The position numbers and the translations under genes are program-made. A DNA stretch of 60,765 nt. It comes from Agarophyton chilense. Lineage: Eukaryota; Rhodophyta; Florideophyceae; Gracilariales; Gracilariaceae. The stretch covers positions 1 to 60,765 of the forward strand of contig JARGXX010000069.1 of NCBI GenBank assembly GCA_030374765.1, in the 5' to 3' direction. Within the stretch, counting starts at the first letter, position 1. Each line of letters starts with the position of its first letter. Below the pieces are notes generated by a model that was given only the letters and a program-made list of their open reading frames with translations, was not told where the DNA came from and searched no databases. Positions 22,594-59,531 of the stretch are shown here, in pieces.

Positions 22594-22880
22594 TCGCAAG
22601 AAATCGAGCTGAAGAGCGTTGAGGAACAGAATGCTGTTGAGAACTGTAAAAGTTGGTCGGGCAGGGAGGAATTCGTGATGAATATAAGTGCCCGGAACAC
22701 CGATCCGACTGCGTATGAACGCTTCTTGCTTCCCCCATGGTTCGCGCTTAACGAATGGGGTATGTAGTATTCTACTATGTCGGGGAATCCGATAGGTTGG
22801 TTTTTCGCGAAGTCGCGGTTGGAACTCATAAGTGAGTGATATCATCAGCATTGTGATATGAAACGGCATCCCGCATAAAA

Positions 22881-24230: not shown

Positions 24231-24660
24231 TCACTGGCACGTGGCTTGCTCGAACGAAAGACCAGTGTCCATCAAGTTGATGGCGAAAAGCCAGGCAGAT
24301 ATGGCGTTTGCGATTTGGGTGCGCCATATGTGGCACACTTGCAGCGCGCACGTCGCTTCTGTGCCATGTACGTCCAAAATGGGGCGCGCGCGCAGTTGTT
24401 TCAAAAAGGAACCGATTTCCCGGTATCACTGCATACACGCACGGCTCTTTGTGGAGGTCCAAAACACCCGGAAACCGCGATGCTTAAACCACCACCACAA
24501 CCAACACGAACCCCATCCCTCCCCTTCCCTAAACCCTCCTCCTCCCTGTTCTCAAGTAGCTACAGCCGCCCGCTCCACTAACTCTCGCGCCCCCTCCACC
24601 CCGCCACATCCCCGCAACCCTATCCCTCAGCCTTTCACCGAGGGTGCATCCAACGCTGCA

Positions 24661-25150
24661 CTAACCCCCGCCAACCCTCCAATTCTCCGCGCACCCCTCC
24701 ACCACCGCCGCAAATCTGTCCGCAACTAACCCCCGCACCGACTTCCACTCCACCACCACCACAACCCTGTCCCCAACTAACCCCCGCACCAACTGCCCTT
24801 TCACCACCGCTGCAACTCTGTCCCCACCTAACCCCCGCACTAATTCTCCCTCCACCACCGCCGCAACCCCGATGGCAACGCACCCCCATACCGACTCTCC
24901 CTCCACAACCGCCGCAACCCTGTCCTCAACTAACCACCGCGCTAATTCTCCCTCCACCACCGCCGCAATCCTGTCCCCAGCTCACCCCCGCACCAACTTC
25001 CCCTCCACCACCGCCGCAACCCCGCTCGCAACTCACCCCCGCACCAACTCTCCCTACACCACCGCCGCAACCCCATCCGCAACTAATCCCCGCACCAACT
25101 TCCCCTCCACCACTGCCGCAACCCTGTCCCCAACTAACCCCGCACCCGGC
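24661..25150 (+). repeat. 51-bp minisatellite, about 9-10 units
   Basis: Units of 51 bp with a core of CCCTCCACCACCGCCGCAAC followed by CC(C/T)..CCCCAACTAACCCCCGCAC repeat with substitutions but almost no length change. The multiple-of-three period makes the frames open on both strands (plus strand as a 17-residue repeat around PSTTAAT). I treat it as satellite rather than as a gene. Confidence 0.85.
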
Positions 25151-25687
25151 TTGTCGAAGAATCACCGATCAGAAAGTTCTCACAGACAGTGCTAGACGAA
25201 ACGAGACCTCGACCCACAGCAATTCCGGATAGAAAAGGAAGGGAAAAAGGAAAGCAGAAAAGAAACGGACGAAGAATGCAACCATTCCGTTCAATTGAGA
25301 AGAGTCACGGAAGACGTGTCTCTTTATACTCAAACGCCGAACCTTCATTCTTTTCAGGAGATTTCCCGAATGTCACCATGTTCTTATCCTTCAAAAAGAA
25401 AGAAATGCAATATACGCGCCGAAGAGGTATGTATGGCAAACGCGATGCAAGAAACAAACAAGAATGAGATGCAGGTGTGTTCTTTCTCGTGAACCAGCCG
25501 AGATTGACATTAATGCCTTCAACAAATGGCGTGTGTTCGATTGTACTCACGGCATCCTCTTCCGACCTTCGATCTTCAAATGATCCGAACTCTACTATGG
25601 CTGGCTCAATTCAACGATTCGGAATGACCGTCAGTATTGCTCAACATATGTGATGGATTGTTTCGCTTTTCCGTATCATTTACAATT
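25151..25687. other. No supported gene
   Basis: Short frames on both strands overlap without homology or start context. I see nothing supportable here. Confidence 0.5.
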
Positions 25688-28144: not shown

Positions 28145-28709
28145 ACGATTCGAATGATGAAGAATGGAAGACTGCATTTACTTTGCAAACAAACTCGAGA
28201 ATAAGCCCGATTCACAACATCACAAGCCGAACCTGAAGTCGCAATGGTCGACGCTCGAGTGACCGCGGTATGCGAAACAGAACTCCTGAGGGCTCTGAAT
28301 TCGCTTTTTCCAATTGTTCGAAGGTAAATCCATCGCCTCCACTGGTTTTCGGCCTCGATAGTCCGGAAAATCATCCCACCCTGTGCACTATTGAGAGGGA
28401 AGAGAGTACACTAGATGCGGTCAAAGAGTATGGGAGGCAAAGCATTAGCCGTAAAAACGTGTTGCAAATGCAATGGGCTTCCACAGAGAGGTTGTTCCGA
28501 AAGAGAGCCGATCTTCATAGGTCATTGAGCGCTGAGAAGTGGCTTGGTACAGAGGAGAAAACAACTCCTATTACCTTCCCGGATGAAATCCCACAACGGC
28601 GCGAACGCGGTCGAATTGCTTCAACTAGACGAAATGACGGAATTGAAACACCGAATGTGAGTCAGAACATATCATTCGTTGAGATGCACATGTTGCAGTC
28701 ATTGATAAA
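28145..28709 (+). other. Poorly supported ORF region after DCP1
   Basis: A 147-codon frame (28,270-28,713) is open, polar and without recognised motifs. It could be a downstream exon of the DCP1 gene or chance. The left end of element 2 was looked for here and not found. Confidence 0.2.
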
Positions 28710-29318
28710 GTGAGTAGGCAGGCAATTTATGACTCAAACCTATGCGGAACAGATATAGACGCCGTCGCAGCTACTATGGAACCCACATTAGAGATTTGTC
28801 TCTGCGTTGGGTATCGAGCAGCTCGCCAAATAGCGCAGCAGCAAAAAAAAGATTTTTTCGCAGTCAATCATCTTGAGGCAGATGTTCTTGTTGCACGGCC
28901 CGAGTCGCACACGCCTTCTCTATTTCTTACGCTGCTTTTACCAGGTGTGCAAAGTATAATTGCAGACCTTAGTCCTCGACGTGAACACATCCAGATCACG
29001 AACCCGAAAAAAGCGATTCGTTTGGACGTGAAGAGGACTTCAAGCAGCGTTCATTCCTTTTGTCTGCACGCGTTTCTGTTCGCCATCGTCGGAGAGAGGT
29101 TAAGCAAGCCCGCGATCCCTATCGCACGGCTACGTAAGCCAACGAGTGTTCATTTACGTTGTCAGCGGGCCCTGTTTTTCGTGAAGGTCTACGAGAGATT
29201 CCGAGGCCCTTATCTAAAGGTTCACGTGATGCGGCGCAAAAACGCAGAGAACAGGAGGATCATTCGGAGTTCTCGGAAACCCAAGCCGCCTGTTACGGCT
29301 TCTAGCAGGAAGGACGCG

Positions 29319-32047
29319 ATGCCTGCAACGCGCAGCGGAGCAACGCGGGCGAATAAGGTAGGAATCCCACCATGGAAGCCGAAACCTGACGAGCAGGTGA
29401 CTCGGTTGGTGACCACGCCGAACGGCGAAAAGAAAGTCGTGGTGAAGGCATTTGTAAGGGGTGCGGTTGATGCGACGGGGAGGCTTACGGGAGATTTTGG
29501 GAGAGAGTTGCATGGTCACAAACTGGTCGGGAAGGCGAAGGAGAAACCCGTGGTGGTATGGAAGTTGTTGATTCAGGATGAGAAAGAAATGGATTGCCCT
29601 TATCCGTTCAAAACTACAGATACCGTACCGAACCGTCTGGGTGATATGGAGCGCAACTCTTTCTATTGCTGGGACGTGAACATGATGAAACTTTATGGTG
29701 GCGAAGGGGCGACTCTTCCACAGACACCGTCCTCCACTCCGTCTGCACCTTCAGCCAAGAAGCCCTCTGCTAAGACGGTGAAGGAAAAGGAGCAAGAAAG
29801 AGGTTCGTCGTCTGCAACGGAAGGTACGGTGAGCGAGGTGGTGAGGAGGATCGAAAGAAATTCGGGAGGTCCGATGACTCGTAATCGGGCCGTTCACGAC
29901 ATTCCAACCTTAGCTAGTGACGAAGAGAATGGGACCGAGAGAGAAGCGAAGAGGCGACAGTGTAGTGGTTCCCATGGTGTTAACTTCCATGAAAAAGGAG
30001 AAGGCAATGAGGCAGAAGGGCATGGTTTAGAAATAAATGAGGTACGCGGAGGCACTGCTGTTTCAAAGAAACACGTTTTTGACGAATCAAAGGACGAAAT
30101 TGTTCCAGGTGGGAGTGCGGGACGAAGTAAAGGCCAAGTTCGTTTTCCAAAGGCCATACCAAGCGGGAGCGGGGAGAAACGTGTAGGGACGGAGCCTAAG
30201 GGAGAAGGAGTCGTGGTTGGGAGGAAGGGGGTGCAATTTCGCAGAGTCCCGGAATGCAGATCAGTACAACGGTCTTCTTATCGACAAAACCCGGATCATG
30301 CAGTGAGGAGTGTCAAAAAAGGGCACGCTGAGGGGTCAAACGACCGATTGGGCGCGGGGAGACCTCCGAGAAACCAGAGTGTGAGGGAGTGGAGGAAGGG
30401 AGGGGAGGTTGAAAAAAGAGATGGACTCTGGGGTGGGGATGAGGAGGATGAGGATGCAATTCGCCCGTGGAAGGAAGGCGAACAAAAGGGGATGACGTAT
30501 GCAGAAACGAAGATTATGGGGCGGAATCAGCTGTTGGCCAAGTTTGGAGACATGAACGGGGAGCTTCAAAGGGCAAGGGATGACAACGCAAGTTTGCAAC
30601 TAAGCTTAAAAATCGCCCACAGGGATATGAAGAGGCTGGAGGGCGAAGATAAGAAAAAGGAAATGCTGCTGACGTCATTGAAAGAGACTCTTCGTGGTCG
30701 AACAGGACAAGTGGGTGGCGAAGAAGGGAAGGGGGGTCGGAAACGGTATGGAATTGAAGTGGATATGCGATTTATTGGAGTAGCCTGGAGAGTTTACGAG
30801 AACATATTGCGTTCTGCAAAGGAGGAGACGAGTGAGTTGTGCTTCGGAAGGAGGGAACCGGAGCGAAACTGGTCGAACCGGGCAGAAGAAGTGAGGGCGG
30901 GGAGGAATCAAATTATTCTGATTATAAATGAAAAGAAGATGGTGCCTTTAGATCCTATGGAGCTGGCAACAGGAAGAAAGTCGTGGGGACCGAAGGCCTA
31001 CACTCCGTCTTTTCAGGGGGAAGTGATGAGATGTTGTTGCATGTGGTGCGGATGGAGTTGGAGAATCCGATATAGAGAAATTTTGCGGGGATGGGGATGA
31101 AGAAGCAGTGTGAAGAGGAGTTGAGGAGGGATACGTGTTTGAGGAGGCGGATGAAACAGGCTCTCAGTGATGCTGTGGGGGTGCGGAAAAGGAATGCGAG
31201 GGATAGGTTGTTTTTGGGTCTGGGATATACTCTACTTGCTAGAAAACCTCTTAACGAGGATGATGAAGAACTGAATGTGTTGTATGAAGAGCAGAAGATG
31301 GAGGCTCGGGAGAAGTTGTTCCCGAAAGCCGCGAATGGGGAGCCCGTCATATCTGCATGGAGGATGGACAAGATGGAGAACCTATGTTTTTCAGGGTACG
31401 ATGTGAACTCGACAAAGTACGAGGATGAACCTGATGAATTGTGCTTCAAGAACGGATTGAGTGTGGAGGTGTTGAGAGAGTTTATGGGGTACGATGTGGA
31501 GCAACCGTGGAAGGAAGGAGAGACACAGTATGTGGATGGAAGTGTGATGCATCTGGCCCGCTTGGATGCGGGGATTGCATCTGTGGTAGAGGCGTTGGAT
31601 GAGGAGATGGGTAGAGGAGGGAAGCGACAGATGCTGTTTTCGGAACTGTATGCGAAGCATCTGCCTGTGGCTGTGGAGGATATCTTACGGACAGCGAGAA
31701 GGAAGGTGGAAGAGAAGTACGGAGAGGAGCTTGTGAACCATGGTGTGAAGGATGAGGACCCGACTGAAGTGCTGGGAAATGAGGAACGTGAAGGGACCGT
31801 TGCGTTTTGGATGCCTTCGAACCAGCTGGTCTATCTGGGTGTTCGCTACGAGGAGTTTTTGGAGGAGATGACTACTTTTCTAGGGTATGTATTTGATTGC
31901 TACGTCGGACGTTTTATGCCTGAAGAACGCGAGTTTACGGAGTTGTTAGCGGAGGAGAAAGAAATATGGGAGGCGAAAGAGGAAGGGGAGGAGAGAGATG
32001 GGGAGGGGGTGGAAGGCGGAGGTGAACTAGATATTTTTGATGATTGA
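29319..32047 (+). pseudogene. Coiled-coil partner protein of element 2
   Basis: Start chosen at the ATG of MPATRSGAT (29,319). The N-terminal domain (about 29,370-29,700) resembles that of the ParB-like protein of element 1: LHGHKL against MHGHSL, CWDVNMM against AWDTSMM. A long disordered region follows, then a coiled coil (ELQRARDDNASLQLSLKIAH) and the conserved C-terminal half shared with the element 1 partner. A frameshift near 31,020 and a TAG near 31,070 separate the two halves (28,710-31,100 and 31,091-32,047). The C-terminal half is otherwise complete with a Glu-rich tail and TGA. The element 1 partner lacks this N-terminal domain. Confidence 0.55.
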
Positions 32048-43591: not shown

Positions 43592-44393
43592 TGTAGGACA
43601 ACGCTTGAAGGGGAGACACCACGAAGATGTTCGGGATCTTCCTCTCTTGAGAGACACGCCTCAGGCGGAGGAGACGCGTCCGAGTGGAGCACAGAAACAG
43701 AGCCACTCTGGAAAGGCACGACGCAGTCGGGTGTAAGACCGAGTCCAATCCGACGGGATATACCTAGAGTGTTTAGGTGAGCACGGCACAGTCCGGGGTG
43801 TGACCAATCCTACGCGGAGAGGTCTCACGGCGATTGTCGGAAAAGGAGCGAGGAAACACTCGTAAGAGGGGGACGAGCAGGGTAAGTGAGGCGGCCACTC
43901 ACGAGAGCCAAAAAGGAGAACAAGAGGAAAACGGGGGCGAAAACCTATACAGGGGCGAGACTACGACAAGTGTCGGCGATTAAATATGAACCCGCGGTGG
44001 TGGTAGCACTCTGATCGACAGAGGGGTAGATGAACTAACGTGCAACGGGCGCTCACGCAGTATGCGGTGAAGACGCGCCAAAGGCGAAAGTTCAGAGCCA
44101 AGACTCCCTCCTTGGGATCTCCCAAGAGGGTGTTTACTGGGAAGCAGTGCTTAACCAACCTCCTAAGTAGTGTTGCGCGCGGCCCCTGACAGTGGGCGCG
44201 CGCCCGAAAAATAGACACTAAATAGCGATAGCGTAGCTAAATAAATACTGAGAATTACTAAATAATACTAACCATTAGGTAGAATCCGGGCCACGTGTGG
44301 CCCGCCTCGCACTCGAGCGTCGGCATCAGTGCAGTCCACGTGTTCCACCAGTGAGCACTTCCGGTCCTAACCGGCCGTCGGCACGACCGAGCT
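43592..44393 (-). repeat. 5' LTR of chromovirus A
   Basis: About 802 bp, closely matching 58,405-59,193 in the same orientation with scattered substitutions and small indels. Read on the minus strand it starts TGCCGACGG and ends GTTGTCCTACA. Both contain the GCGCGCGGCCCC...GGGCGCGCGC palindrome near 44,180 and an AT-rich block before CCACACGTGGCCC. Confidence 0.85.
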
Positions 44394-46610
44394 CTTAGGT
44401 CTTCGAGTCAGCCGAGAAGGTATCTCTGTGCATCCCGGTAAGATTGATGTTATTAAGAATTGGCCAAAGCCCATCAGTATAACCAAACTACGGAGTTTCC
44501 TGGGCCTCGTTCAATTCTTTCGAAGATTTATCCCGCGTTTTTCCTTGCGTGCCGCCCCGCTCACGGCCCTCACACAGAAGAACTCTAGTCTCAAAGACTG
44601 GAATTCGGCTGCCAATGCGTCGTTTGTGGATCTGAAGGAAGGACTGGTATCAGCTCCTGTGCTTGTACCCCCAGACTGGTCTCGGCCGTTCCGCGTCCAT
44701 ATTGATGCATCGCAGCTGGCAGTGGGCGCCACCCTCACGCAGCATGATGAGGATTCTCGAGACCGGGCCATTGCATATACCTCCAGGAAGCTGAATGCCG
44801 CTGAACAGAACTACACAGCTAACGAACGGGAGCTTTTGGGATTGATATGCGCCCTACAACGATTTAGATGCTACCTATAGGGGTCTACTTTCGATGTTTT
44901 TACGGATAATCAGGTTGTGGCTAATCTTTTTACGAAGAAGTCTCTGAACCTCCGTGAGGCCAGGTGGTTAGATATTCTTGGCTCGTTCAACATTCGCGAG
45001 GTCAGCTTAGTCCAGGGGAAATTACATGTACTGGGTGATGCTCTATCACGAATCCCGGACCGTCCGTGTATCCAGCAGATCCAATGCCTCACACCGTCGC
45101 TTGCGGAACTCGAGGAGACCATTGGACAATATGACAGGGATCAGGTCTTTGGTCCGATCATGGCTGCTCTTGACGGGCGTTGGACCGCTGATGCCAAGGA
45201 ACGCAAACGGATTGAGGTTTTGTTGCCTTCATTTTCCAAGGAAGGCTCTCGTCTTTTATACAAAGGCAAGCTTTGTGTACCGGCGCATTGTCGCCGAGAG
45301 ATTATGAGCCTGGCCCATGATTCCAAAGTAAATGGTCATTTTGCATTCGCGAAGACACTTGCACGACTTGCGGACTTTCATTGGAAGCATAAGGCCAGGC
45401 AGGTAAAGGAGTACTGCGAAGGTTGTGGAATCTGTCAACAACAGAAAGATGCTGATGTATAGATGTTGAACGACCCTACACCTCTTCCTGTGCCTACGCG
45501 TCGGTGGGGCATCGTTGCCACTGACTTCATAGTGAAGCTACCAAAGACAGAACGAGGGTTGGACTCTATCTCTACCTGGGTAGACAGGTTGTCACGGCGA
45601 GTTCGTTTCGTGGCATGTAAGGAAACCGATAAGGCGACTGATATCGCGCAGGTTTTCTTTAGGAACATTTTTCCCCACCACGGGCTACCGGACTCGCTCA
45701 TTTCGGACCGGGATCCTCGGTTCGTTTCAGCATTTTGGAAAGCGTTGATGGATCTATGCGGAGTCGAAAGCCGGATGTCTAGTGCACGACATCCCCAAAC
45801 CGATGGAGCTTCTGAGGTCATGAATCGAATGATAGAGAAATATATTCGTTGCTTTTGTTCATTCGAACAAACCGATTGGGACTTGCTACTTCCAAGTGCC
45901 GAGTTTGCGTACAACTCAGCGGCTTCAGAGGATCTTGGAATGTCACCATTTGAAGTGGATCTTGGATGGAAACCGAAGGCTCCATTAGACGCTCTGTTTA
46001 GGCGTTCTACTACAGTGAAGTCCCTTGGCGATTTTCGGGATCAGATGAAGATGGTATTGGAAGACGCCGCGTATGCCCATGAATTGGCAAAAGCCCGACA
46101 GACTGCGGAATCAAGCGTACATTGCCGCGTTCCAGACTGCAAGGTCGGAGATGAGGTGTGGGTTTCTCGAAAACTCTTTCGAGACTCCTATTCGAAGGCT
46201 CAAGCGTCCGCTAAGTTGTCCGCTCGTCGCGTTGGCCCGTTCCGCATATTGGGCCTGGTCGGAAACAATGCAGTGCACCTAGACTTTCCTTCACATATTC
46301 GGACCCACCCAATCGTGCATGTTTCCCACACCAAGCCGCACCGCGTCCAGCCGAAGGGTATGTCTCACCTTGTCGTCACACACCGCTGCCTGTATCAGAC
46401 AATGAGCGCCCTCTCTTCAATGTAGGCCTTATTTTGTCTCACCGCAAACGGGGACGCGGTTATCAGTGGCTCGCTTTATTGGAAGGTTCAAACACACACG
46501 ATGCATAATGGAAGCCTACACGTGACTTTGTTGATAGTGACGGCACATTGACTAAGGCCTTCCACGAATACATTGTGCGAAACAACCTACTATCTCATTT
46601 GCATTGACGA
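44394..46610 (+). pseudogene. Chromovirus B pol 3' part: RT end, RNase H, integrase, chromodomain-like tail
   Basis: The frame starts at LLGLRVSREGI and includes KLRSFLGLVQFFRRFIP, RNase H (HIDASQLAVGATL, then DVFTDNQ), an HHCC zinc region (HDSKVNGH ... CEGCGICQQ) and the DDE core (DFIVKLP, ISDRDPRF, HPQTDGASEVMNR). TAG stops lie at 44,878 and 45,460, both in frame. A one-base shift near 46,350 moves the frame into a chromodomain-like tail (GYQWLALLEG ... WKP) that holds a TAA near 46,520 and ends in TGA near 46,605. Confidence 0.75.
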
Positions 46611-46638
46611 GGACGTCAATATAGTGGGAGGATAAAGG

Positions 46639-47009
46639 TGCAACGACTAAATTTGACTACGACGAATGGTCGTCACCGAAGACAAACAGTCGACTACGAC
46701 GAATGTTCGTTGCACCAGACAGTAACTGATCCAGTCGGGATGACGGGTGCGTAGGGAACTGAGATGGAAGCAGAGTGAAGGGTTGTAGGCCAAACAGTCG
46801 AATTGGAACCCGGAGGGATGCGAGAAGAGTGAAGGTTTGTGGGACAAAGAGTAGAATTAGAACCCGAAAGGATTCCAGGCGGCTGCTATAAAACCCACTG
46901 TAGAGACCAGATCGTTTGAAGGGATCTACGGCATCGGCCCGTCAGGGAATAGTTCCAATAAACTTGTCCGGACTGCTGTCACCATTAACTACCTAAGGTC
47001 TCTGTTGCA
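46639..47009 (+). repeat. 3' LTR of chromovirus B
   Basis: 371 bp, with TGCAAC at the start and GTTGCA at the end as terminal inverted repeats. The same length and near-identical sequence occur at 55,970-56,340. A TATAAAA box is at 46,887-46,893. The flanking duplication ATATG is at 47,010-47,014. Confidence 0.9.
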
Positions 47010-48067
47010 ATATGCCTCCGCGACCGCTCTCACGAAAGCGGAGCCATACCTATCTTATGCTACAGAGCAATACTCATATTACTGAATCAAAAGAGAAGTC
47101 TTCTAGACATAAACATACTAAAGACAAGATTAGAACAGGCTCAAACGCTCCGGTTGATCTCTACGACGTGTTTCTTGCTACTCAAGAAGCAAAGAATGCA
47201 GCGATTGGAATCCAGGCCAGCCGCCGTCGGCGACCTGATGCGGAACCTCTCTTGACTTCCGTTGATAATCTGTTAGACAAGGTTAAGAGAGATTCACATT
47301 CAGGTCTCTGTGAGATTTTGCGAGAACACCAATTTGTCGGTGTAGCCTCGGAGAGATTTGTTCTGTTGCAATATGAAACAAAATTGCTGATGGCAGATGT
47401 GCCATCCCTACTGAGGCAACTGATATATCAGCAGACCTTGATTCGATTTGCAGATATGGAAGCATTTACTCTGAAACCCCCGGCGCCAATCATGAAGCTG
47501 TTAACCAATTATCTGTCAACCAATCCAGAGTGCTTAATCACTCGAAGAATTAACGCAGAGTCCTGTGCCATGGTACTACTGGAAAAGGGTCCCATGTTAT
47601 CAGAGTATTATTCTCTCTCCACGGAAGGAGATACCCCGCAAACCCTCCACTTAAAAACGCTGCCCCAGATCATTCCCAATGTGCTGCCTGACCTTCGCTT
47701 CTTGGGCTCTTTTTTATATCATCTTGCTGTAGACACAGACTGGAATGAAGAGGAGCGGTGTTTTCGGTATGTTTCAGAGGCCTTTGGAGAATGGTACGGC
47801 AGTCATTGGAATCCCATGTTAAGTCTCTCAGAGCGTGAAAGTCCAGATTGGCCGTGCGGAACCGATAACGAATTTCCCCTTGATGATGAGTCCTGGAAGT
47901 CTTTGAAGGTTGAGAACGAGAGTCAAGGGCGAAATTGGGTTATTCGCCATGTACTGTTTTCAGCTATGCGCAGCAACTACCACCCTCCGAAAAAATTTCT
48001 TACTGAACGAGTCTTGAGAGAAATAACTACAACGTCACGTCTGTATAAGGTCTTTGAGCGATGCTAG
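47010..48067 (+). pseudogene. MLH1: MLH1 C-terminal half, separated from the rest of the gene by chromovirus B
   Basis: The open frame from 47,012 first encodes a basic linker, then the MLH1 C-terminal dimerisation domain. It has FVGVASERFVLLQYETKLLM, QLIYQQTLIRFADM, a MLSEYYSL segment, LPDLRFLG, VDTDWNEEERCF and a WVIRHVLFSAMRS segment. It ends in LYKVFERC, the conserved MLH1 C-terminus. MLH1 pairs with PMS proteins in mismatch repair and the CTD is the pairing interface. The ATATG that opens the ORF is the target-site duplication, so the ATG is an internal Met codon and not the gene start. The matching upstream MLH1 piece is at 55,547-55,969. Confidence 0.85.
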
Positions 48068-48845
48068 ACTTTCAAGTTAGGCCAGAAATGAAAAGCCAGC
48101 GCAGTTTATTCCATTTGTCGAAGTTCGTTTCAACAAAGGATAGTATTGAGACACGGAAGACGGAGGAAGCTTCTCCAATTAAAGCTCTACTCTGCGTTCT
48201 ATCTCTTGATATTCATTAGTGGTAGTTTTGTCAAGGATCTTGTAAACGCATCACCATTAATCTTTGTACCGAAATGCACCGCTGGTTTCGTGACTCCACT
48301 TCGTATTGCACCAGGCTAATCATCAAGTAATTAACAATTCTGAATGAGCCGAAGGGATAAAACCATTGCGAAGGCGATGGGAGTGCGATTTGAGCTCCAA
48401 TCTTGTAAAGGTACGTAATTTTGTTGTTGACTTGACGCTTTTTCTCGATTGCGATCTTCAACTTTTGAAACAGCCGAAAACCAGCAGGTCTTTGAAGCTC
48501 CAGTCATCTGTGATCAGGGAACTATTCTAGTTCTGGACAAACGTAATGTCATTCCTTCTGCCTATTAGCACGAATAAAGCTCTTCGGTTCTGAATATGCA
48601 GTTGTGGCGACACAAGCTGACGTGATGATTGTCTTCATCGAATTGTTCTGATTTCTAGTTGTTTGCCAGAGAGCAATCCAGAATTCCAATTGACTGCAAT
48701 CCAGTAGATTGCGTTACATCTCTCCTTAACTTGCTAAACATGGCCCTAGGCAGATTTCAAGACAACCCAGTTTTTACGTTTTTGTACATGTTAAAAGATA
48801 GTTGTGTGCAATAAGAAAGACTGGGCCCAAGCACTGAGAATCACC
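48068..48845. other. No supported gene
   Basis: AT-richer sequence downstream of MLH1 with only one short minus-strand frame (48,461-48,231) without motifs. Probably 3' flanking sequence. Confidence 0.5.
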
Positions 48846-49847
48846 TCACGGCGTAAAACATTCTATTGGCATCACTGATTCATTCGGGTTTTTTGTTTTG
48901 ATGAGGACGTCATCAAGATTTTTTTCTTTGGGATTATCTTCGTCCCTCAAGTTGGATTCGCCAGTTACTTGAAGTTCGTCGGCGATAAGTGCTTTTATCC
49001 TTCGGAATATAAAGTTTATTCGGTTCAAGCGATTTAGAAGGAGAAACAATACGCCAGAGACAAGGATTGCGAAAATAATTGCGACGTGAGCTTTTGCCGC
49101 TCGAGCTCCTCCAACAATTGTGAAATCCAAAACACGATGTCCCCAGTCCCTGGTCACTGTGTACCGAATTCGTGCGAAAAGGAGCCATGCAGTGATGAAA
49201 GCAATCGCGACAAACACATAGGCAAGCTGAAACCCCATCCGCAACGAGAGAAAGAAATCCACAAAGAGAAGAAGAAAATTGACCGCGTGGACAAGTACGC
49301 GCGGCATTATCATCCCTTCCCTCTCTTGAAGCAAAAGCTAGAACGCAAGATCTGCTCCCGTAGAGAGTGATAGAAATAGTTGGTACGTGCAAACAGTGGA
49401 ATTGGCCAAGAGTGGGAAGGACCATCGCCCAGACATGATTGAAGACGATTGTTCCGGGTACAAGCGATACAGCAATGAACTGATAGTCGCGAGAATCATT
49501 GTGCTAGTTACACCCAAATATATCCATGTGATGAACCATCCGTAATTGAATTGTCCACTCGGGGCGAGCAATCCGAGAGTAAATACAAAAAGGCATGTGC
49601 AACATAATCGCCAAAGGAGAATCACGCGCGAAGACACCCAAACGGAGCCTCCTGCTTCCGACAGAGTGTGAGACTTGAAAGTAGGAAATGGATTATCCGG
49701 TGCCAACACGCGAGTTTCCAGCTGATGTTTACGTGCCGAATCTTGAGACTGAAAAGACCTGCTAGTGGATTGAAATGCACTTTTAGTGGACTCAGCGTTC
49801 GCATCGAGGGTACTGGAGATGACCGTTGTTTTGCAGTTCTTCTCCAT
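48846..49847 (-). pseudogene. Rolling-stone / FAR-17a-AIG1-like membrane protein with one in-frame TAG
   Basis: Start taken at MEKNC (49,847). An 80-residue polar N-terminus is followed by about six transmembrane segments: VILLWRLCCTCLFVFTLGLL, GWFITWIYLGVTSTMIL, a third ending near 49,345, VLVHAVNFLLLFVDFFLSL, AYVFVAIAFITAWLLF and AIIFAILVSGVLFLLL. The HAVNFLLLFVDFFLS plus following tyrosine-rich helix resembles the core of rolling-stone and AIG1/FAR-17a proteins. A TAG at 49,340-49,338 interrupts the frame without shifting it (CAG to TAG would restore Gln). Function of such a protein here is unknown. Confidence 0.55.
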
Positions 49848-49859
49848 GACGTAGAGCAC

Positions 49860-51529
49860 TGGGAGGTATTTGGATGATTTCCATCGCGTTTATCCTAACG
49901 GTAAAGAACTAAATCAGTCTACAACCAGAACGGTCAGGAACCCGAACAAACCGAACTTTAGTACTTGGACATGAAAGCACGGAGATGACAAATATGAGAA
50001 TGAGGTTGTCAGTAGAACAAGGAACAAAGTCGTGATGGGGGGAGGGCGACTATTTGTTGAACAATATTGCAAGCGAAACGAGCCAGCTAGAATCTGATGG
50101 GAAACTCGGTCTCAGGAGCGTGTATGTATTCAGTCCATGAAAAAGATGCTGTAGCTTGTTAGAATTGCGGTTGAGCGTGCTCATGAGATGAGCAGGCTCA
50201 TGAGCAGTGCGATGGGAGATGAATTGGCGTTGGAGGCCAGTGCGGGTACGATAGCCGTAGCAAGCACAGTTCTGTATTCATGGCCGAATGCATGGCCGAA
50301 TGCATGGTTGAATGCATCGGTTCGCACGGAAGCCACCTAAGCAGCTCATTTACAGGCGGCGACAGGAAGATGTGCCACACGGCCACGCTCCTGAGACCAT
50401 ACGGCACAAGTCCACAACTCCAACGCGTCGCCGCCCCACTCGGAGTGTGCGCACCTCAACATCCAACCAGTTGCTGGTGTGTCGGAACATGTGAAGCACG
50501 CTGTCGCTGTCAAATCTTTCCACACGCGTTCCAATCGAGATTATGTGCAACGTTCAAATCACACACCCCTTGGCGCTTGCCATGAATGCGGTTTGCACGT
50601 ACGCCACCCTACGTCACGTGGAAACCTGCTTCCTTCGATTCGCTTTCAGTGCCCTGCGGATACGAGTCCTCCTGCCAAATTATGCCCGATGCTGCAAGGG
50701 AACGAGCAGTTCACAATTTCAGACTCAATCGCACTCGCGCGTTGTCGATCAGAAAAGCAGTGTCTCTCTGCATCTCATGCCGTGCTTTCGCTGACGATGG
50801 ACGTGAGCTGTTGCGAGGCTTACAGCCCCGCACAATTGGAATCGTACGCAGATGCGGTATGCCAATTATCATGATCACGAGGAAAGGTCCCCTCACGTGC
50901 TCTAAAGAGGTAAGCGAGTACTGGCGGCGGCTCTTTGCCGGATAGCGGCTCCAAGGCGCGAGAGTTGCGCGCGCGAGAGAAGACTGATTGAGAGGTATTG
51001 CGTGCAGGCGGAGCGTTGAGTGGAACGGAGATGCCCTTAGCCGGCGCTGTAGCGCAAGCGATGGAAACAAAAGTCGTTAGATATGGCGGCACGGCGTCAA
51101 CGACGAAGAAGACGAGGCGGTGTATCATAATGTGGAGTGAGGTGGGAGCCGGCGAGGAGACGAAAGGCAGCTTCGCTGAAATTTTTGCTCAACAGTTGTT
51201 AGAATCCAGCGCAAAGCAAGCGCGCTTCGCACTTGCGCGCTTCGCACTTGCTTTGATTGGATCCTGGAACAATGCGAAGTCAGCGCTTCCGCTTCCGTTG
51301 CAAGATTACGCCTGTTTTCGTCAAAGCTGAATTCAACCACCGCGGATGGTTCCAACGCCGCGCCTTTGTTTTCCATCAACCTCGAGACAATCACAGTGCC
51401 AAACCTGCGCTGAACTCACGAATCCTTTGACCATTCTCCCTCCTGGTAACCTACTCCGCTGCGGAGGGGAATGACCACTCGCTTCTCGCACCTCTACCGT
51501 AGCGCTCAAGAGCCACGTCAAGGTTCACC
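49860..51529. other. No supported gene; short tandem repeats
   Basis: Many short frames on both strands, none with motifs. A 12-bp unit ATGGCCGAATGC repeats about three times at 50,279-50,315 and GCGCGCTTCGCACTT is duplicated at 51,218-51,252. The last part is the upstream region of the Uma2-like gene. Confidence 0.5.
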
Positions 51530-52702
51530 ATGTCTTATTCGTCGCGCATCCCCCCACCTCCGTCCCCGCCGGACTCAGCTCTGAGCGACGATTCCAACCC
51601 TCAAGCAGCCCCGTTTTCGGCGAACCCCCAGCCTAGCGCATCCCCAAAGCTTCCCCTAGACAACAAACTGGGAGCACTGCACCTGACGCCTTGCTCACTG
51701 GAAGAATACTTCAACGTCGATCCTTCTGTGTTTGGCTTGTATGAGTACGTGGACGGCCTTCTTGTTGCACTACCGATGGCCGATGATCATCACGATGAAA
51801 TAAGCCACATGATGCAGGCCTCGGTTCATACTCGATATGTCGAAGGAAAGACATCACAAATACCCTTTCTACAGGCAGGAACTGCTATTCCACCAGAGTC
51901 TCCATCTTCGTCGCGCTCTCCGCGTCGAAGACGTGTGAGAAGGCCGGATATTAGCACTGGTCGCTTGTTGACGCAAGCAGAAAGACTTCAACTCTCTCCC
52001 AACTCCCAAAAAGTCACTCACCCTCTCGGTAGACCTCCGGAAACTGTTGTTGAAGTTACCAGCAAGAACGAGACGACCGACACTGTGATCAAAGTACGCG
52101 AGTATGAACGAGCCGGTGTTAACCAGTTCGTCATCGTGAATAGAGATACCACCTGTGATGACGAAAAGAAACGCGATCCACGCGTTGAAGTATACAAAAT
52201 GAATCGGGAGACAGGTAAATATTATCCCAAACGCGTATTCCGTGGAGAAGAATCTGTTGATCTTGGTCCTTGTGGCGATCACAGGCCCAAGGATCTGTTC
52301 AAACCGGATCCGTCAAAAACGCTTGATGATCTCGCATCCTCTTTCCGTTCTAAAGACGCAGCGCTGGCTTCGAAAGACGCAGAGAAGGAAGAGCTGCGTC
52401 GTTCAAAAGACGCAGAGAAGGAAGAGCTGCGTCGTTCAAAAGACGCAGAGAAGGAAGAGCTGCGCCGTTCGAAAGACGCAGCGCTGGCTTCGAAAGACGC
52501 AGCGCTGGCTTCGAAAGACGCAGAGATAGAACAGATGCGTTTGGAATTGAAAAGTGGAACGTCCAAGCACAGAAGGCTCAGGGAAAAGGTGAAGAAAGAA
52601 TACCCTAATGTGAGCTTGAGCAACTCCAGTGGAAGTTCGAGTGCAAGCCCCACAAACAGTCCAAAGAAAAAGAAGTCCAAACGTCCACAACGGAGACACT
52701 GA
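51530..52702 (+). CDS. Uma2-family (PD-(D/E)XK nuclease fold) protein with SKDA repeats
   Basis: Complete 390-codon frame. Residues 1-48 are Ser/Pro-rich. Residues 49-260 match the Uma2/DUF820 fold: YEYVDGLLVALP at 71-82, RRPDIS with Asp140, ETVVEVTSKN with Glu175, then TVIKVREYERAGVNQFVIV with Lys188. Asp, Glu and Lys are the expected nuclease triad. Uma2 proteins are abundant in cyanobacteria and rare in eukaryotes, so transfer is likely. Residues 273-335 are a predicted coiled coil of repeated SKDAALA and SKDAEKEELRR units, and the tail is Ser/Lys-rich and ends in TGA. No clear signal peptide. Function in the cell is unknown. Confidence 0.7.
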   Translation: MSYSSRIPPPPSPPDSALSDDSNPQAAPFSANPQPSASPKLPLDNKLGALHLTPCSLEEYFNVDPSVFGLYEYVDGLLVALPMADDHHDEISHMMQASVHTRYVEGKTSQIPFLQAGTAIPPESPSSSRSPRRRRVRRPDISTGRLLTQAERLQLSPNSQKVTHPLGRPPETVVEVTSKNETTDTVIKVREYERAGVNQFVIVNRDTTCDDEKKRDPRVEVYKMNRETGKYYPKRVFRGEESVDLGPCGDHRPKDLFKPDPSKTLDDLASSFRSKDAALASKDAEKEELRRSKDAEKEELRRSKDAEKEELRRSKDAALASKDAALASKDAEIEQMRLELKSGTSKHRRLREKVKKEYPNVSLSNSSGSSSASPTNSPKKKKSKRPQRRH

Positions 52703-53304
52703 ACAAAGTTTTGGACTCCACAATCATTAGATATGCTTTGTTGTGACATTTTTGGGCCCATTTGTTTGTGTTTCATTAAGAGGTCTGATTGTATTGCTTA
52801 TCTCAACGGTACCAGAAGATCAAACCCAAGAACGCACAAATTTAGAACTAGGTTCACCCGCACGGAGTAAAGACTCAATTGTCGTTCTTGTTCATTACAC
52901 TATTGCAACTCTTCCAAGTAATGCTATGCTGGTTGAGCTGATTCTGTGGACTTGCTGCAGCTCACGCACCATTTGTGACTGCAATGCGTGGGCGGACCAG
53001 TTCTGAGCATTGTACCGAGGATGTAGTGAAACTTGTTGGGAAACTATGGCATTCCCTACCATGATCAAGGATTCCCTTCGATGACACCAGAGCCTATGTC
53101 GAGGCCTAAACAGACCTCCAACTTCTAGCCTAACTTACGTCGTCATCATTTTCACGTTATACTGTAGTACGAACACAATCGCCCCACATCATCACACACA
53201 CTTGAGCAAGTCAATCCGGTGCACACAAACTTTGGCCTGTAGTTGTCTGTACGATTCCAACTTGCACAGCAGCTCTCTGTATGCACATGTGCAGCGCCGG
53301 ATTC
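52703..53304. other. No supported gene
   Basis: Short frames only, no motifs or repeats noted. Confidence 0.5.
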
Positions 53305-55120
53305 TCACGGTGCTGATTCAGGCGGTCTCGGTCCATGCATATCATGCATACCGTTTGATCCCCGTGGGTCTATGCTTGGAAGAGAGCCTCTGATACCTTT
53401 GCTCTGTTGGAGGGGATCAAACTGCTTACCGCCCAGGATCAAGTCGTGAGATATTAACGATCCTGTAGTGTTCTTTCCCAAAATCAACTCGTCTCTAGAC
53501 GTATCGGTATGTAATCCGTTTTTAGGGATACGTGGCATGAGATCACCAACAGATGGGCCATTGGGAGCAGATGTGGCCAAGCGACTAGGCGACTTTCCCT
53601 TTGGAAATGCGGGAATTTCACTTCGGCGAGCTGCCGACGGTGGTTGGGGCTCAAGAGGCCGGCTAAGCGGTGAAGGGCCTTGCCTATGATATCCATCACT
53701 GCACTGCAGGTTGCTCAAGGCAGTGGTAAGGTTAAATGGGTCTCGCGAACGTATTGAGCGTTCCGGAGGTTCATGACACCCATTGCGAAAAGGCGGAAAC
53801 CTTCCAGGAAGGGGGCCCGTATCATCCTCGCCAATCAAGGAAGCATGAATCAAATTGTTATCCCTTCTATCCTTCGGCATCCATCCAGTGGTAAATGAAG
53901 GTGCAATAGCCGGAGGGATTGGCAAGATACCCGGTATGAATATCTATGGAAGTGGACCTACTGGAGCGTTTTTGATGGCATCACGCAACCCCTCAGAGAG
54001 ACCACTCACTTGGGCTGGAGCTAAACTTGGGGCAATCCCACATGGATGAGTTCGAGAAATGGGACAGGAAGATAAATCGGGGTCATTTAGAGCGCTACAG
54101 GCCCAGCATCGCCACCACCCAGCGCTTGACAATGCTTTGGTTTGTTCGTTACACACCTCAATACCTCTAGTTAGGCTTGCGTGCTGGTCTGGTGTTAAGT
54201 ACGCCTCCCAAGGGATTGTCTCACGGGACACCAAACATCAACGCTTCTCCTTTGGACCTCTGCTCATCGCTTACCCAGCTTCTCTATCGGAGGAATCAGG
54301 CCATGAATCTCGCATAGTAGTCGCTGCCAATGTGTCTCGGTTCGAAAATGATGAAGCTCATGATAGGCTGCCCGACGTTTGGATGTTTGCATTTTTGAGA
54401 TAGAGTCGAGTGCTTCCAGAAGGGAACGATGTAAATGACGTGGAGGAGCTGATGACGCAGAATCTTGGCTGACACACGTTGACATCTTTGTAGCCACGGA
54501 AAAGAGAATTCTGACTCAGAAATGCGTTTTACGTTATGGATCTAGCTTCGCAGTTGAGCACGAGTAATTGATGCTGAGCCGCGATGAAGCGTTGTTGCGA
54601 TCATTGAATGTACATGAGCCGCTTGGTTTTCGGGATCATGACTGGACACGTCAGCAGAGGGTGTTAAACTTGGAAGACCCATGAATGTGGGCGCTTCAGC
54701 CGAGTCGTGTGATAATTTGTCGGGTATCGGGCATGGCTGTAGAGGGTAGGCTTCGTCTAAAGCGATTGTGCTTGTAGAAGCCGAATGCAGCGTTTCAGTC
54801 GGGTTTACAAGTGATGAAGTGATGTTTGAACGCTGTGGGTGCTGCTGTTGCGTTTCGATAAACAAGGCTTCTTCGGTGTACGAGAGACGGGGATTGGGTT
54901 GAAAGTAGTGAATATGTGTCGGAGTTGCCACTTGGTTGACCTGAGGCTGTCGTGCCCAAGTCGTTTTGAAGAGGCAAAAGCTGGTTGGCGTCTGTTGCAG
55001 TAGTGTTTGTAGTATTTGGCAGAATGGGCAATGCGCCAGAGGATGTAGAAGGTGAGTGTCCGGAACCATTCCAAGTCCCAGCTACAAATAATGAGGGAAC
55101 AGAAGGAGAGGTTGATAGCA
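53305..55120 (-). pseudogene. Degraded Pro/Ser-rich protein with a possible zinc finger
   Basis: Three minus-strand pieces in different frames could be one gene. They are a Pro/Gln/Ser-rich stretch (55,069-54,542), a helical stretch (54,497-54,264), and a piece with WWRCWACSALN...C...C (54,234-53,944), like a WxCxxC zinc finger with loose spacing. The last piece continues past a TAG at 53,944 in the same frame to 53,305. A GTAAGC near 54,277 may mark a small intron between the second and third pieces. No family assigned. Confidence 0.35.
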
Positions 55121-55481
55121 ATGGGGTTGAAAGGAGTTGAGATTAATGGGTGCTCGGCTGCGATTGAGTCGGAGGTTGCAGTTGCAGCTCATATGAGACA
55201 CAGAAAGATTTTTGCAGGCGCATTGACTACCAGTCTTGAGTTATGTTGGCAAGGCGGGCTAATTTGTCATAGGAACGTCGCAGAGCGGGAAGAGATGAAA
55301 TTGAATGAAGCAGAGAATCAAGATAGGCTGTGGTAGCAACATTTGGATGGGTTGCGAGCGCCTGAAAGTGACCAAGATTGTTGACAGTTCGCAGTCGCTG
55401 CGTCCATGTGTCGAGGACGATAGTTCGCAGAGAGCCGTGGGCGTACGCAGTGTTACCGGGCATCGGTCCTCTTTTGAAACG

Positions 55482-55510
55482 ACTGCGCGCGCGCGCGCGC
55501 GCGTGCAACG
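55482..55510. repeat. (GC)n microsatellite
   Basis: About ten GC dinucleotides lie some 40 bp before the MLH1 fragment begins, that is, next to an apparent rearrangement breakpoint. Confidence 0.8.
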
Positions 55511-55546
55511 CGTGGCGCTGGCCCCGTTCGGGGCGTCTTTGCATCC

Positions 55547-55969
55547 GATCTAAATATGGACCAGAAAGATATTGATGTGAACGTGCACCCCACCAAGAAA
55601 GAGGTCCGTTTTCTTCACGAAATTTCTATCGTAGGGGCAGTTGTTGAAGCTTTGAGCAAAGAACTAAAGCATGCAGAATGCTCCCGGATGTTTTCAACGC
55701 AGACTCTGCCTTCTGCGAAATCCACGGGCTCTGGATTTGGTATTAAACCCATACACGGAGAAGGTAGTGTTCCTAATTCAGACTAAGACCGTGCACGTAC
55801 TACGCCGCAAGATCAAAACCACGTTATGTGGGCGAAACAGAGTTCCGTTTGTAAGTCAAATCGCCGTATAGAAAGTGGAGGAACTGCTTCAAATGGGGAC
55901 CCTCAACTTATGATAGATAAAAGTGCCAATGGAGATGTATCCAGGTAACTAATTGCAAAAGATGATATG
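55547..55969 (+). pseudogene. MLH1: MLH1 internal fragment, cut by chromovirus B
   Basis: The frame around 55,556 encodes [18 protein letters not shown], the MLH1 signature at the end of the N-terminal ATPase/transducer domain, then [12 protein letters not shown] and the start of the variable linker. TAA stops lie at 55,784 and 55,946, both in frame, and the frame then continues to ATATG at 55,965-55,969. There the 5' LTR of B begins. The frame across ATATG matches that of the C-terminal piece at 47,012. The MLH1 N-terminal part (ATP-binding motifs) is absent upstream, where sequence becomes unrelated around 55,546. Confidence 0.85.
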
Positions 55970-56340
55970 TGCAACCACTAAATTTGACTACAACGAATGG
56001 TCGTCACCGAAGACAAACAGTCGACTACGACGAATGTTCGTTGAAACAGACAGTAACTGACACAGTCAGGATGACGGGTGCGTAGGGAACTGAGATGGAA
56101 GCAGAATGAAGTGCTATAGGCAAAATAGTCGAATTGGAACCCGGAAGAATGCGAGAAGAGTGAAGGTTTGTGGGACAAACAGTAGAATTAGAACCCAAAA
56201 GGATGCCAGGCGGCTGCTTTAAAATCCACTGTAGAGACCAGATCGTTTGAAGGGATCTACGGCATCGGCCCGTCAGGGAATAGTTCCAGTAAACTTGTCC
56301 GGACTGCTGTCACCATTAACTACATAAGGTCTCTGTTGCA
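55970..56340 (+). repeat. 5' LTR of chromovirus B
   Basis: 371 bp, TGCAAC ... GTTGCA, matching 46,639-47,009. One base after it TGGTATC begins, like the first bases of an initiator-Met tRNA primer-binding site. ATATG precedes it. Confidence 0.9.
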
Positions 56341-56374
56341 CTGGTATCGTCGCACCAAAATGAAATTAGCAACC

Positions 56375-57171
56375 CCCCTGTGTTGATCAATTAAAAACCC
56401 AACAAGCCGGAGTCGTTCTGTGGAAAACGCGATTTTCTGGTATTGAACACGTGGTTATACAAATTGGAGCAATATTTTAATCTGGTACAGATCGCCAACG
56501 CCAATGTGGTCCTCACAGATGCCAACCGAATTTCATTTGCAACAACCCTGTTAACAAGCACAGCGGCTATATGGTGGTATACTTTGCTGAGATCTAAGGA
56601 AGCCTCAAAGACATGGGATTAGTTCGTTGCTGTAATGAGAAAGGAATTCGTAACAGAATATCACGAACGCAGAGCCCGAGACGCTCTGAGGTCCTGCAAG
56701 CAGAATGGTTCCGTCGCAGAGTATCTTTCCAACTTTCGGAATACTGTTCTCACTATCCCTAATATGAACACCAGCGAGAAGTGGGATAAGTTCGTCAGCG
56801 GTTTGATGTCCAAAATTCGGATTGAAGTTCGTAAGGCCAATTGCACGGAGTTTGAAGAAGCTACCAAGATTTCCATGCGTGTCGAGGCGGCGTTCGAACG
56901 TATTACTCTAGATCAGTCGACCAACAAGGTATCTATTGCCGATCCTGAACCAATGCAGATTGATAACACCGAATTTCGTCGCTACGAGCGCTCAAAGCAG
57001 CGTTTGTTAGGCATCCGCAACAACGCATGCTTTAAGTGCCATAAACCGGGTTGCCGACCGTGGAAGCATCGTTCCAATGATCAACGCAACGTCACTGTTT
57101 CGAATCTTGAGGCTAGTCTAAAGAATGAAAATGCAGTTGATGAAGTAGTTTCTGATAGTTCGGAAAACTAA
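56375..57171 (+). pseudogene. Chromovirus B gag
   Basis: Capsid-type gag: FCGKRDFLVLNTWLYKLEQYF, then a WWYTLL segment and YLSNFRNTV. A knuckle-like CFKCHKPGCRPWKH lies near 57,030 with odd spacing. In-frame stops TAA at 56,392 and TAG at 56,620 interrupt it; frame is kept otherwise and it ends in TAA at 57,171. Confidence 0.7.
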
Positions 57172-57224
57172 AGTGTCCTTCCCAAAGTAACAAAAGCACG
57201 TCGGAAGGGCTTTTTGTCAATAAC

Positions 57225-58404
57225 GTGTCGCCGCATACAGGAAACAGTCGAGTTAGATGTATCTCTTTGATGGTCATGGAGGGTGAATTCGACAGGGTTC
57301 CGGCTCGAATACTGAAAGATGACGGCTGTTCATCGAATGTGATTTCACGGGATTTTGCGGAATCCCATCGATCTAAGTTCACCTTTCATCCGATATTGAT
57401 GGACGTGTCTCACTCCAAACAAGGCTCCTGTGAGATTGCCACAGAAATGGTTCTCAATGGTACAGTCACAGTCGGCAATTATTCTTACGCTGGCAATTGG
57501 ATAATCGCCGATGCAAGGTATGAAGTTCTGCTTGGTATGCCTTGGCATGTCGACCAAAATCTTGAGACAGATTATAATCAGCGAGTGGTGGTGGTTGGGG
57601 GCCATAGACTGTCGGGAGAAACCACAGCAAGACAGGGATTCTGTGCAGTACAGACTATGGGCGTCAAACAGTTCCGTCGACATCTGCGCCGCCCGAAGAA
57701 GGGAATAGAAATTTTTAGGGTGGTGCAGGTTTCATCCTCTGAGCTATTGGGTCGACAGCCAGATTCAAAGGCGAAGCTGCTTGATGAGGAGGATGAGGAC
57801 TTACGGAAAATTCTAGAAGACCATGAGGCCGTATTCCAGTCTGAGCTTCCTTCCGGATTACCCCCTGTGCGGTCTGTTGATCATGCTATTGAGACTGATC
57901 CAGTGTCACGCCCTCCTCATCGCCCGCTATATCAGTTGTCTCCGGCCGAGTTAGTACCTGCTCGAGAATACGTGGACAAACTCCTGTTGTCTGGTAAGAT
58001 CCGTCCGAGTAAGTCGCCGTATGGCGCACCTCTTTTCTTTGTTTGTGAGCCTGGCCGGGAGTTGAGAGGTGTGGTGGATTACAGAGCTTTAAATCGGATC
58101 ACGAAGCGCAATAACGCACCTATCCATCCCGCGATTGGGGCAGTCACAGTTCTTTTCTAAACTGGATTTGAAGACTGGGTTTCACCAAATTCGACTACGA
58201 CCATCAGAAATTGAGAAGACGGCATTTAACACGAAGTATGGTCAGTTCGAGTATTTGGTGATGCCAATGGGATTATGCAATGCACCTGCTACTTTTCAGA
58301 CCCTGATGAATGGAGTTTTTTCCGACTTCATAGACCGAGTCGTAGTTGTATATGTCGATGACATTTTGATTTACAGTCGAATACGCGAGGAACACCTTAA
58401 GCAT
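57225..58404 (+). pseudogene. Chromovirus B pol 5' part: protease-like and RT
   Basis: A protease-like domain has ILKDDGCSSNVIS where a D(S/T)G motif is usual. The RT fingers and palm follow: SPYGAPLFFV, GVVDYRALNRIT, then after a frameshift near 58,140 FSKLDLKTGFHQIR, MGLCNAPATFQ and YVDDILIYS. It breaks off at EEHLKH where the LTR of A starts. Confidence 0.75.
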
Positions 58405-59193
58405 TGTAGGACAACGCTTGGAGCGGAGACATCACGAAGATGTTCGGGATCTTCCTCTCTTGAGAGACACGCTTCAGGCGGAGGAGACGCGTCCCAACGG
58501 AGCACAAAAACAGAGCCACTCTGGAAAGGCACGACGGAGTCGGGTGTAAGACCGAGTCCAATCCGGCGGGATATACCTAGAGTGTTTAGGTGAGCACGGC
58601 ACAGTCCGGGGTGTGACCAATCCTACGCGGAGCGGTATCACGGCGATTGTCGGAAAAGGAGCGAGGAAACACTCGTATGAGGGGGACGAGCGGGGTGAGT
58701 GAGGCGGCCACTCACGAGAGCCAAAAAAAAGAACAAGAGGAAAACGGGGGCGAAACCCTATACAGGGGCGAGACTACGACAAGTGTCGGCGATTAAATAT
58801 GAACCCGCGGTGGTGGTAGCCATCTGGTCGACAGAGGGGTGGATGACCTAACGTGCAACGGGTGCTCACGCAGTATGCAGTGAAGACGGGCCAAAGGCGA
58901 AAAGTTCAAAGCCAAGACTCCCTCCTTGGGATCTCCCAATAGGGTGTTTACTCGGGAGCAGTGCTCAACCTACTAAGTAGTGTGGCGCGCGGCCCCTGAC
59001 AGTGGGCGCGCGCCCGAAAAATAGACACTAAATAGCGATAGCGTAGCTAAATAAATACTGAAAATTACTAAATAATACTAACCATTAGGTAGAATCCGGG
59101 CCACGTGTGGCCCGCCTCGCACTCGAGCGTCGGCATCCGTGCAGTCCACGTGTTCCACCAGTGTGCACTTCCGGTCCTAACCGGCCGTCGGCA
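58405..59193 (-). repeat. LTR of chromovirus A inserted in B
   Basis: About 789 bp matching 43,592-44,393 in orientation and sequence. On its left is B RT sequence (AGCAT before the LTR). On its right is element A internal sequence with ORF X, so it behaves as the 3' LTR of a minus-strand A element that continues past the window end. Confidence 0.85.
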
Positions 59194-59531
59194 CGCAATA
59201 GCGGTATAGCTTGTCATAGACCAAGCTAGTCCTCAAGCGAGCGAAATCTCTAATTCTTGGGAAGAAACCCCCTTGAAGGGCATTGTCCTTCATATCCCCC
59301 TCCTTAGGTGACGAACACGCCGTCGACAAGGCGGGGAGGTAACGTTCCAACCGGCATAAAAGCGAGCCGCGTAACGCGTCCAGCGACCACTCGACTGTCG
59401 AAGGCAGAGCTGCACAACCGAACGACAAACGCACCAACGCGGTAACCTCTCCTCGAACTTCGAGCGTTCTTCCGCATCGTGCGCCAACTTCCAGCGAACA
59501 CCTTCCGATACCTCGGCGACCAATATTCCCT

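Follow-up and report, generated by a model that had tools for sequence, protein, structure and literature searches.

The red alga Agarophyton chilense carries, on contig JARGXX010000069.1, a copy of the mismatch-repair gene MLH1 that is split by a retrotransposon and whose two halves stand in reverse order. The window analysed here is this entire contig (positions 1–60,765, hereafter C69), part of a genome assembly of 79.76 Mb in 135 contigs. Read against the other contigs, the window very probably represents one phase of a head-to-tail array with units of at least 55 kb, in which consecutive units supply the two halves, the C-terminal half of MLH1 coming from one and the internal half from its successor. 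The apparent paradox of a transposon-split gene with misordered halves would then be settled, as the window is a tandem array read out of phase.

The MLH1 halves and the array they belong to

Within the window, MLH1 is represented by residues 309–449 and the C-terminal part only. The first-pass annotation had noticed that the internal piece ends in ATATG before the 5' long terminal repeat (LTR) of a retrotransposon, B, that the C-terminal piece starts with ATATG after the 3' LTR of B, and that the C-terminal half lies 5' of the internal half on the + strand. The sequence bears out both the flanks and the order. Its description of the internal piece was right about the end at ATATG, but the piece begins at a rearrangement seam, at position 55547, and, compared with the intact gene, is interrupted by two stop codons. 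One of these is confined, among four aligned array copies, to C69 and the first unit of contig C70. At the left flank, C69, C41, the first C70 unit and the second unit of C86 have ATATG without any change. For a random 5-mer, the chance of a match is about 1/1024. Since the uninterrupted site has one ATATG in the intact gene on C86 and one in a second uninterrupted copy on the same contig, ATATG is a true target-site duplication and chance is not the issue. Thus, a single insertion of B into MLH1 with a 5-bp duplication, as had been proposed, is well supported. The LTRs are of equal length, also as claimed, and bounded by TG...CA, although they differ at 22 of their 371 positions.

A search of the genome for the Mlh1_C domain gave eight matches: the intact gene (C86:1385037), five copies with a 356-residue frame and a dispersed copy on C86 that is hit in two pieces. 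The frame has the identical length and is open in all five copies, i.e., in C36, C41, C69 and twice in C70. The analysis covered contigs C70 and C41 in their entirety, and C36 over its first 30 kb. Two consecutive units are found on C70, with C-terminal MLH1 pieces on the same strand at 16406 and 71818 (55,412 bp apart) and seams at 24942 and 80345 (55,403 bp apart). The two ends of C69 fall on C70 as well: C69 30606–60765 matches C70 1–30160 at 99.7%, and C69 1–20521 matches C70 98329–119080, in blocks, at 99.1%. The end of C69 is bridged to its start by C70 85563–98329, and the arithmetic gives a unit of ~73.5 kb, a figure that mixes two contigs. The remainder of the unit, C69 48068–55546, is collinear at 99–100% with C86:1386285–1393338, C36:15588–22601, both C70 units and C41. 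Over the assembly, 3' halves (a C-terminal MLH1 piece behind the 3' LTR of B) are present in C69, twice in C70, in C41 and in C36, and 5' halves (an internal piece at a seam, followed by 5' sequence of B) in C86, C69, twice in C70 and in C41. The tallies are equal, five of each; a linear chain demands equal numbers, as a circle would too. These counts of units, seams and MLH1 pieces derive from the assembly and hence are lower bounds. The window taken alone is also compatible with a single split gene that was rearranged once, its 5' part being moved behind its 3' part without any repeat. In view of the five copies of each half, the intact copy at the edge of the array and the two consecutive units on C70, the probability of such an event is negligible.

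Both edges of the array are found on longer contigs. At the left edge, on C86 (1.42 Mb), the complete MLH1 gene (from 1383537 onward) is followed by its downstream DNA, by the right end of the unit (1391302–1393338) and by the seam. This first unit, 1384374–1393344, measures 8.97 kb and lacks B. After the seam come MLH1 838–1090, an insert of 1.3 kb, MLH1 1084–1260, ATATG and the 5' LTR of B; the interior of B continues in two pieces to 1398431, and the interior of a further element, A, is found at 1399328–1400794. The 1.3-kb insert is private to this second unit and looks Tc1/mariner-like from its frames. Of eight matches to MLH1 as the query, only the one on C86 reaches query positions 1–837, the N-terminal part of MLH1. 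At the right edge, on C36 (227 kb), positions 1–22601 track the unit and are succeeded by 46 bp not found in C69, 47 bp that are shared (22648–22694) and then DNA unrelated to MLH1. The 8.97-kb first unit without B on C86 and the passage into non-MLH1 DNA on C36 indicate that the seam arose by a duplication of ~9 kb.

The seam reads CATCCGATCTAAAT, with one G shared by both sides. To its left, the un-rearranged continuation on C36 reads ...CATCCGGCGGCG..., and to its right, the intact gene has ...TACGCA before the sequence from MLH1 838 onward. The seam string is seen in C69, in both C70 units, in C41 and in the dispersed copy on C86, and in the second C86 unit by alignment only. The copies with the seam lack ~45–50 bp next to a (CG)n tract; C36 has them. 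Such a seam is typical of a low-homology duplication breakpoint.

The first-pass annotation had offered a tandem duplication, a circular intermediate or an assembly join as explanations. The other contigs support the first. An assembler that walked round a loop of the repeat graph could have produced a false permuted contig, and C69 is indeed a free contig, both ends of which lie within the array and match the ends of C70. However, the edges are anchored in C86 and C36, the two C70 units are 1–3% diverged and differ by an insert of 4.95 kb besides other unit-specific insertions, and the seam recurs, diverged, in the dispersed C86 copy. Therefore, we consider a pure assembly artefact very unlikely indeed. 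An extrachromosomal circle built from at least one unit, with reintegration of some units, would account for the end-to-end overlap in phase of C69 and C70, and the seam inside the dispersed, inverted copy means that seam DNA has moved once. Still, the edges on C86 and C36 point to an array within a chromosome, the dispersed copy spans more than one unit and hence is no single-unit circle opened at one point, and no observation requires a circle, which makes this explanation very unlikely.

The dispersed copy (C86 734897–743478, – strand, loci L007, L030 and L047) lies ~640 kb from the array, covers more than the span of one unit and has the seam but not B, which fits an origin before the insertion of B; it is probably an early offshoot. 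Both of its ends include sequence of C69 48500–50107. The possibility that it is the empty site of a 2-kb transposon was rejected, as the stretch that it misses, C69 53054–55072, is off the limits of the repeat family, 53315–55345; the missing stretch is read as a deletion.

The possibility that C69, C70 and C41 are alleles from a second haplotype was rejected as well, since the MLH1 N-terminus is present in only one of the eight matches to the MLH1 query and the gene for the second subunit of RNA polymerase does not look doubled. A genome search with RNA_pol_Rpb2_6 yielded eight matches, four of which are long stop-free frames at different places; from these matches, the assembly does not look doubled. 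Contig C60 contains a stretch ~100% identical to C69 25610–33500 and probably forms part of the array too, although the sequence is of a dispersed family that, for the query as a whole, also has matches of up to 95% on contigs other than those of the array. We infer that C86, C69, C70, C41 and C36 all derive from one chromosome.

TABLE 1. MLH1 pieces, seam and retrotransposon parts of the array in the window.
Feature	Position	Strand	Remarks
A 3' LTR, truncated	43592–44385	+	95% direct repeat of 58404–59195
B 3' part, RNase H and integrase	44386–46638	+	RT_RNaseH_2 1.2e-29, RT_RNaseH 9.1e-22, SH3_Tf2-1 5.5e-13, rve 5.9e-06 (rve below curated cut-off)
B 3' LTR, 371 bp	46639–47009	+	TGCAAC...GTTGCA
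ATATG, right copy of B target-site duplication	47010–47014	+	single ATATG in two uninterrupted copies
MLH1 C-terminal piece of unit n	47010–48067	+	Mlh1_C PF16413 1.3e-57; open frame, ATG within ATATG
Unit remainder 3' of MLH1	48068–55546	+	two dispersed-repeat segments, ~50108–53315 and 53315–55345
Tandem-duplication seam	55546–55547	+	left side, DNA downstream of MLH1; right side, MLH1 from codon 309; microhomology of 1 bp (G)
MLH1 internal piece of unit n+1, residues 309–449, 2 stop codons	55547–55969	+	98.3% to L004:838–1260
ATATG, left copy of B target-site duplication	55965–55969	+	directly before B 5' LTR
B 5' LTR, 371 bp	55970–56340	+	same place in second C86 unit, first C70 unit and C41
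B 5' part: gag-like (by eye) and protease-like regions, beginning of reverse transcriptase	56341–58404	+	RVP_2 E 0.001 (just below cut-off); RVT_1 7.9e-22 at 58093–58401
A 5' LTR	58405–59292	+	target-site duplication AGCAT at 58400–58404
A 5' interior, cut by contig end	59293–60765	+	39 other matches at 93–100% (40 of 474 candidates scored), including C86:1399328 in the second unit

The nested retrotransposons and the growth of the unit

The domains of B are ordered reverse transcriptase (RVT_1 at 58093–58401), RNase H (RT_RNaseH at 44371–44880) and integrase (rve and SH3_Tf2-1 at 45463–46425), the latter two lying beyond the split. This order, together with the TG...CA LTRs and the 5-bp target-site duplication, makes B a Ty3/Gypsy element (Metaviridae). 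B had been labeled a chromovirus. Reverse transcriptase, RNase H, integrase and SH3_Tf2-1 are matched, but the chromodomain that this label implies is not: the open pieces 46386–46505 and 46509–46604 matched nothing in Pfam at E values up to 1, and 45463–46425 showed no chromodomain, although the two open pieces are short and a decayed chromodomain could escape. Other copies of the 3' part of B are present in both C70 units and in C36; a separate B element is located on C75 (94–96% alike, 96% for the 3' part).

B itself is interrupted by A. In the window, the 3' LTR of A lies to the left and its 5' LTR to the right, which is the same permutation as that of B. That two nested elements are opened in the same sense suggests a repeat read out of phase. 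As compared with the second C70 unit (C70:63262–64235), the 3' LTR of A misses ~182 bp, comprising the end of the LTR, AGCAT and part of B. The untruncated right end of A on C70 is followed by AGCAT, the right copy of its target-site duplication (C70:64152–64156). C41 is not among the 40 matches scored, out of 474 candidates, for the 5' interior of A.

The units differ from each other by 0.3–3.4% in their aligned blocks; the two C70 units are 1–3% apart, and C69 and the first C70 unit 0.3%. Besides substitutions, they differ in insertions and losses. An insert of 4.95 kb in the 3' LTR of B, with two large frames, one of them integrase-like by eye, is common to the second C70 unit and C41, whilst the loss of ~182 bp at the border of A and B is common to C69, the first C70 unit and C36. 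C41 lacks ~2.5 kb found at C70 28023–30524. This branching of private insertions and losses fits unequal exchange rather than a copied contig.

The array with its seam and edges, the uninterrupted site and the duplications flanking the insertions are seen in the assembly itself; from these, the array may have been formed in three steps. First, a tandem duplication of ~8.97 kb, by end-joining or template switching, would have joined downstream DNA to codon 309, so that an intact gene remained at the left edge, followed on the right by truncated copies. Second, B would have landed within the MLH1 sequence of one truncated copy, duplicating ATATG, and A and other elements would have nested in B. 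Third, unequal exchange between long units sharing tens of kb could have raised the number of B-bearing units to five or more. Any contig beginning and ending within A would then read: 3' end of A, 3' end of B, C-terminal half of MLH1, seam, internal half of MLH1, 5' end of B and 5' end of A. The mechanism of array formation is ordinary.

Several observations weigh against a head-to-tail array. The left ATATG of the second C70 unit has an altered last base. Furthermore, the divergence of the B LTRs (22 of 371 positions) is higher than expected from the ~5 array-specific changes in 423 positions of the adjoining MLH1 piece; the mismatch might reflect conversion by the intact gene, or transposable elements may change faster. 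The array is spread over C86, C36, C41, C69 and C70, and probably C60, so that the number and order of the units are provisional. The last ~5.5 kb of C86 correspond in phase to the start of C69, with which C86 may be continuous.

The intact MLH1 gene and the truncated copies

The disruption of MLH1 had been taken as a sign of reduced mismatch repair if no intact copy exists, and the search for such a copy elsewhere, which had been recommended, found one: the gene on C86 contains HATPase, DNA_mis_repair and Mlh1_C in one frame of ~800 residues. Thus, a loss or reduction of mismatch repair does not follow from the split copy. The C86 protein is 100% identical over 799 residues to database entry P0001, the header of which has the format used for frames predicted from transcript records; its accession is presumably that of a transcriptome. 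The intact gene is apparently transcribed. The protein is 69% identical to that of Gracilaria domingensis and 65% identical to that of Gracilariopsis chorda, values that put the organism among the red algae near Gracilaria rather than with the basidiomycetes, which the transposases of the window call to mind.

Each truncated C-terminal copy has its ATG inside the target-site duplication of B, directly behind the LTR. The array-specific changes in this frame comprise five amino-acid-changing and one silent substitution, besides an in-frame loss of 3 bp common to the five copies. Two silent differences (columns 656 and 686), in which the dispersed copy agrees with the array copies, and four substitutions private to the dispersed copy were excluded from this count. 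As possible sites for changing and silent substitutions amount to ~814 and 242, respectively, the changes look neutral, small as the numbers are. A search for a protein with the length of the truncated frame gave one match among 1325 candidates, which was 30% identical, and none from a truncated copy; the clustering of the database at 90% hides nothing here, because the full-length cluster P0001 has a single member. That LTR-driven expression of the truncated copies, at least five in number, lets them compete for the partner proteins of MLH1, with the size of the array setting a heritable mutation rate, is extremely unlikely. The passage on competition among MutL partners in PMC7730388 concerns other subunits. 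Among the literature titles and openings of abstracts that were listed, none dealt with a split or tandem MLH1 from red algae, and the terms "MLH1" and "tandem" do not occur in the body of either PMC12502185 or PMC10388701.

Other features and comparison with known systems

Further features of the window lie outside the MLH1 pieces. An open frame at 6810–8795 (– strand), situated among transposons, encodes a fusion of N6/N4 DNA methylase and SET domains; it has 75 relatives, one of them named from Chondrus crispus, and may represent a red-algal family. A Plavaka transposase match is found at 733–3756 (+ strand; E 1.1e-22). At 28683–31100 (+ strand), in a multi-copy stretch, lies a frame whose residues 2–81 match TsaD (E 5.9e-10), which raises the question of a captured gene fragment. 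A long hairpin at 10108–10650 has inverted arms of 144 and 76 nt that are 94–95% complementary, and a 51-bp tandem repeat at 24644–25204, with nine overlapping register copies, lies within a proline-rich open frame. In the unit remainder, a Uma2-type restriction-endonuclease domain is encoded at 51503–52702 (+ strand), inside the repeat at ~50108–53315. Relatives of this repeat at 84% occur in mixed orientation on C62 and C112, three times on each, where they may form another array.

The window illustrates that contigs bounded by repeats need to be read against the whole assembly before gene loss is claimed. It also offers a piece of natural history, i.e., a partial MLH1 duplication that absorbed nested retrotransposons and whose unit thereby went from 9 kb to at least 55 kb.

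The arrangement of A and B resembles that of other nested retrotransposons in that every insertion is flanked by a separate 5-bp duplication, which is ATATG in the case of B and AGCAT in that of A, with A in B and B in MLH1. It differs from ordinary nested insertions in that the nest recurs along with the array units: the 5' interior of A follows B in the second C86 unit, in C69 and in both C70 units. Likewise, B shares its LTR termini, target-site duplication and domain order with the Ty3/Gypsy elements, but no chromodomain match was found that would confirm it as a chromovirus. The array as a whole resembles a tandem segmental duplication, with head-to-tail copies, a constant seam, the complete gene at one edge and the original flank at the other, and diverged units with private insertions. 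In contrast to the usual tandem segmental duplication, its unit has been swollen from 9 kb to at least 55 kb by nested transposable elements; such growth is unusual in scale, not in kind.

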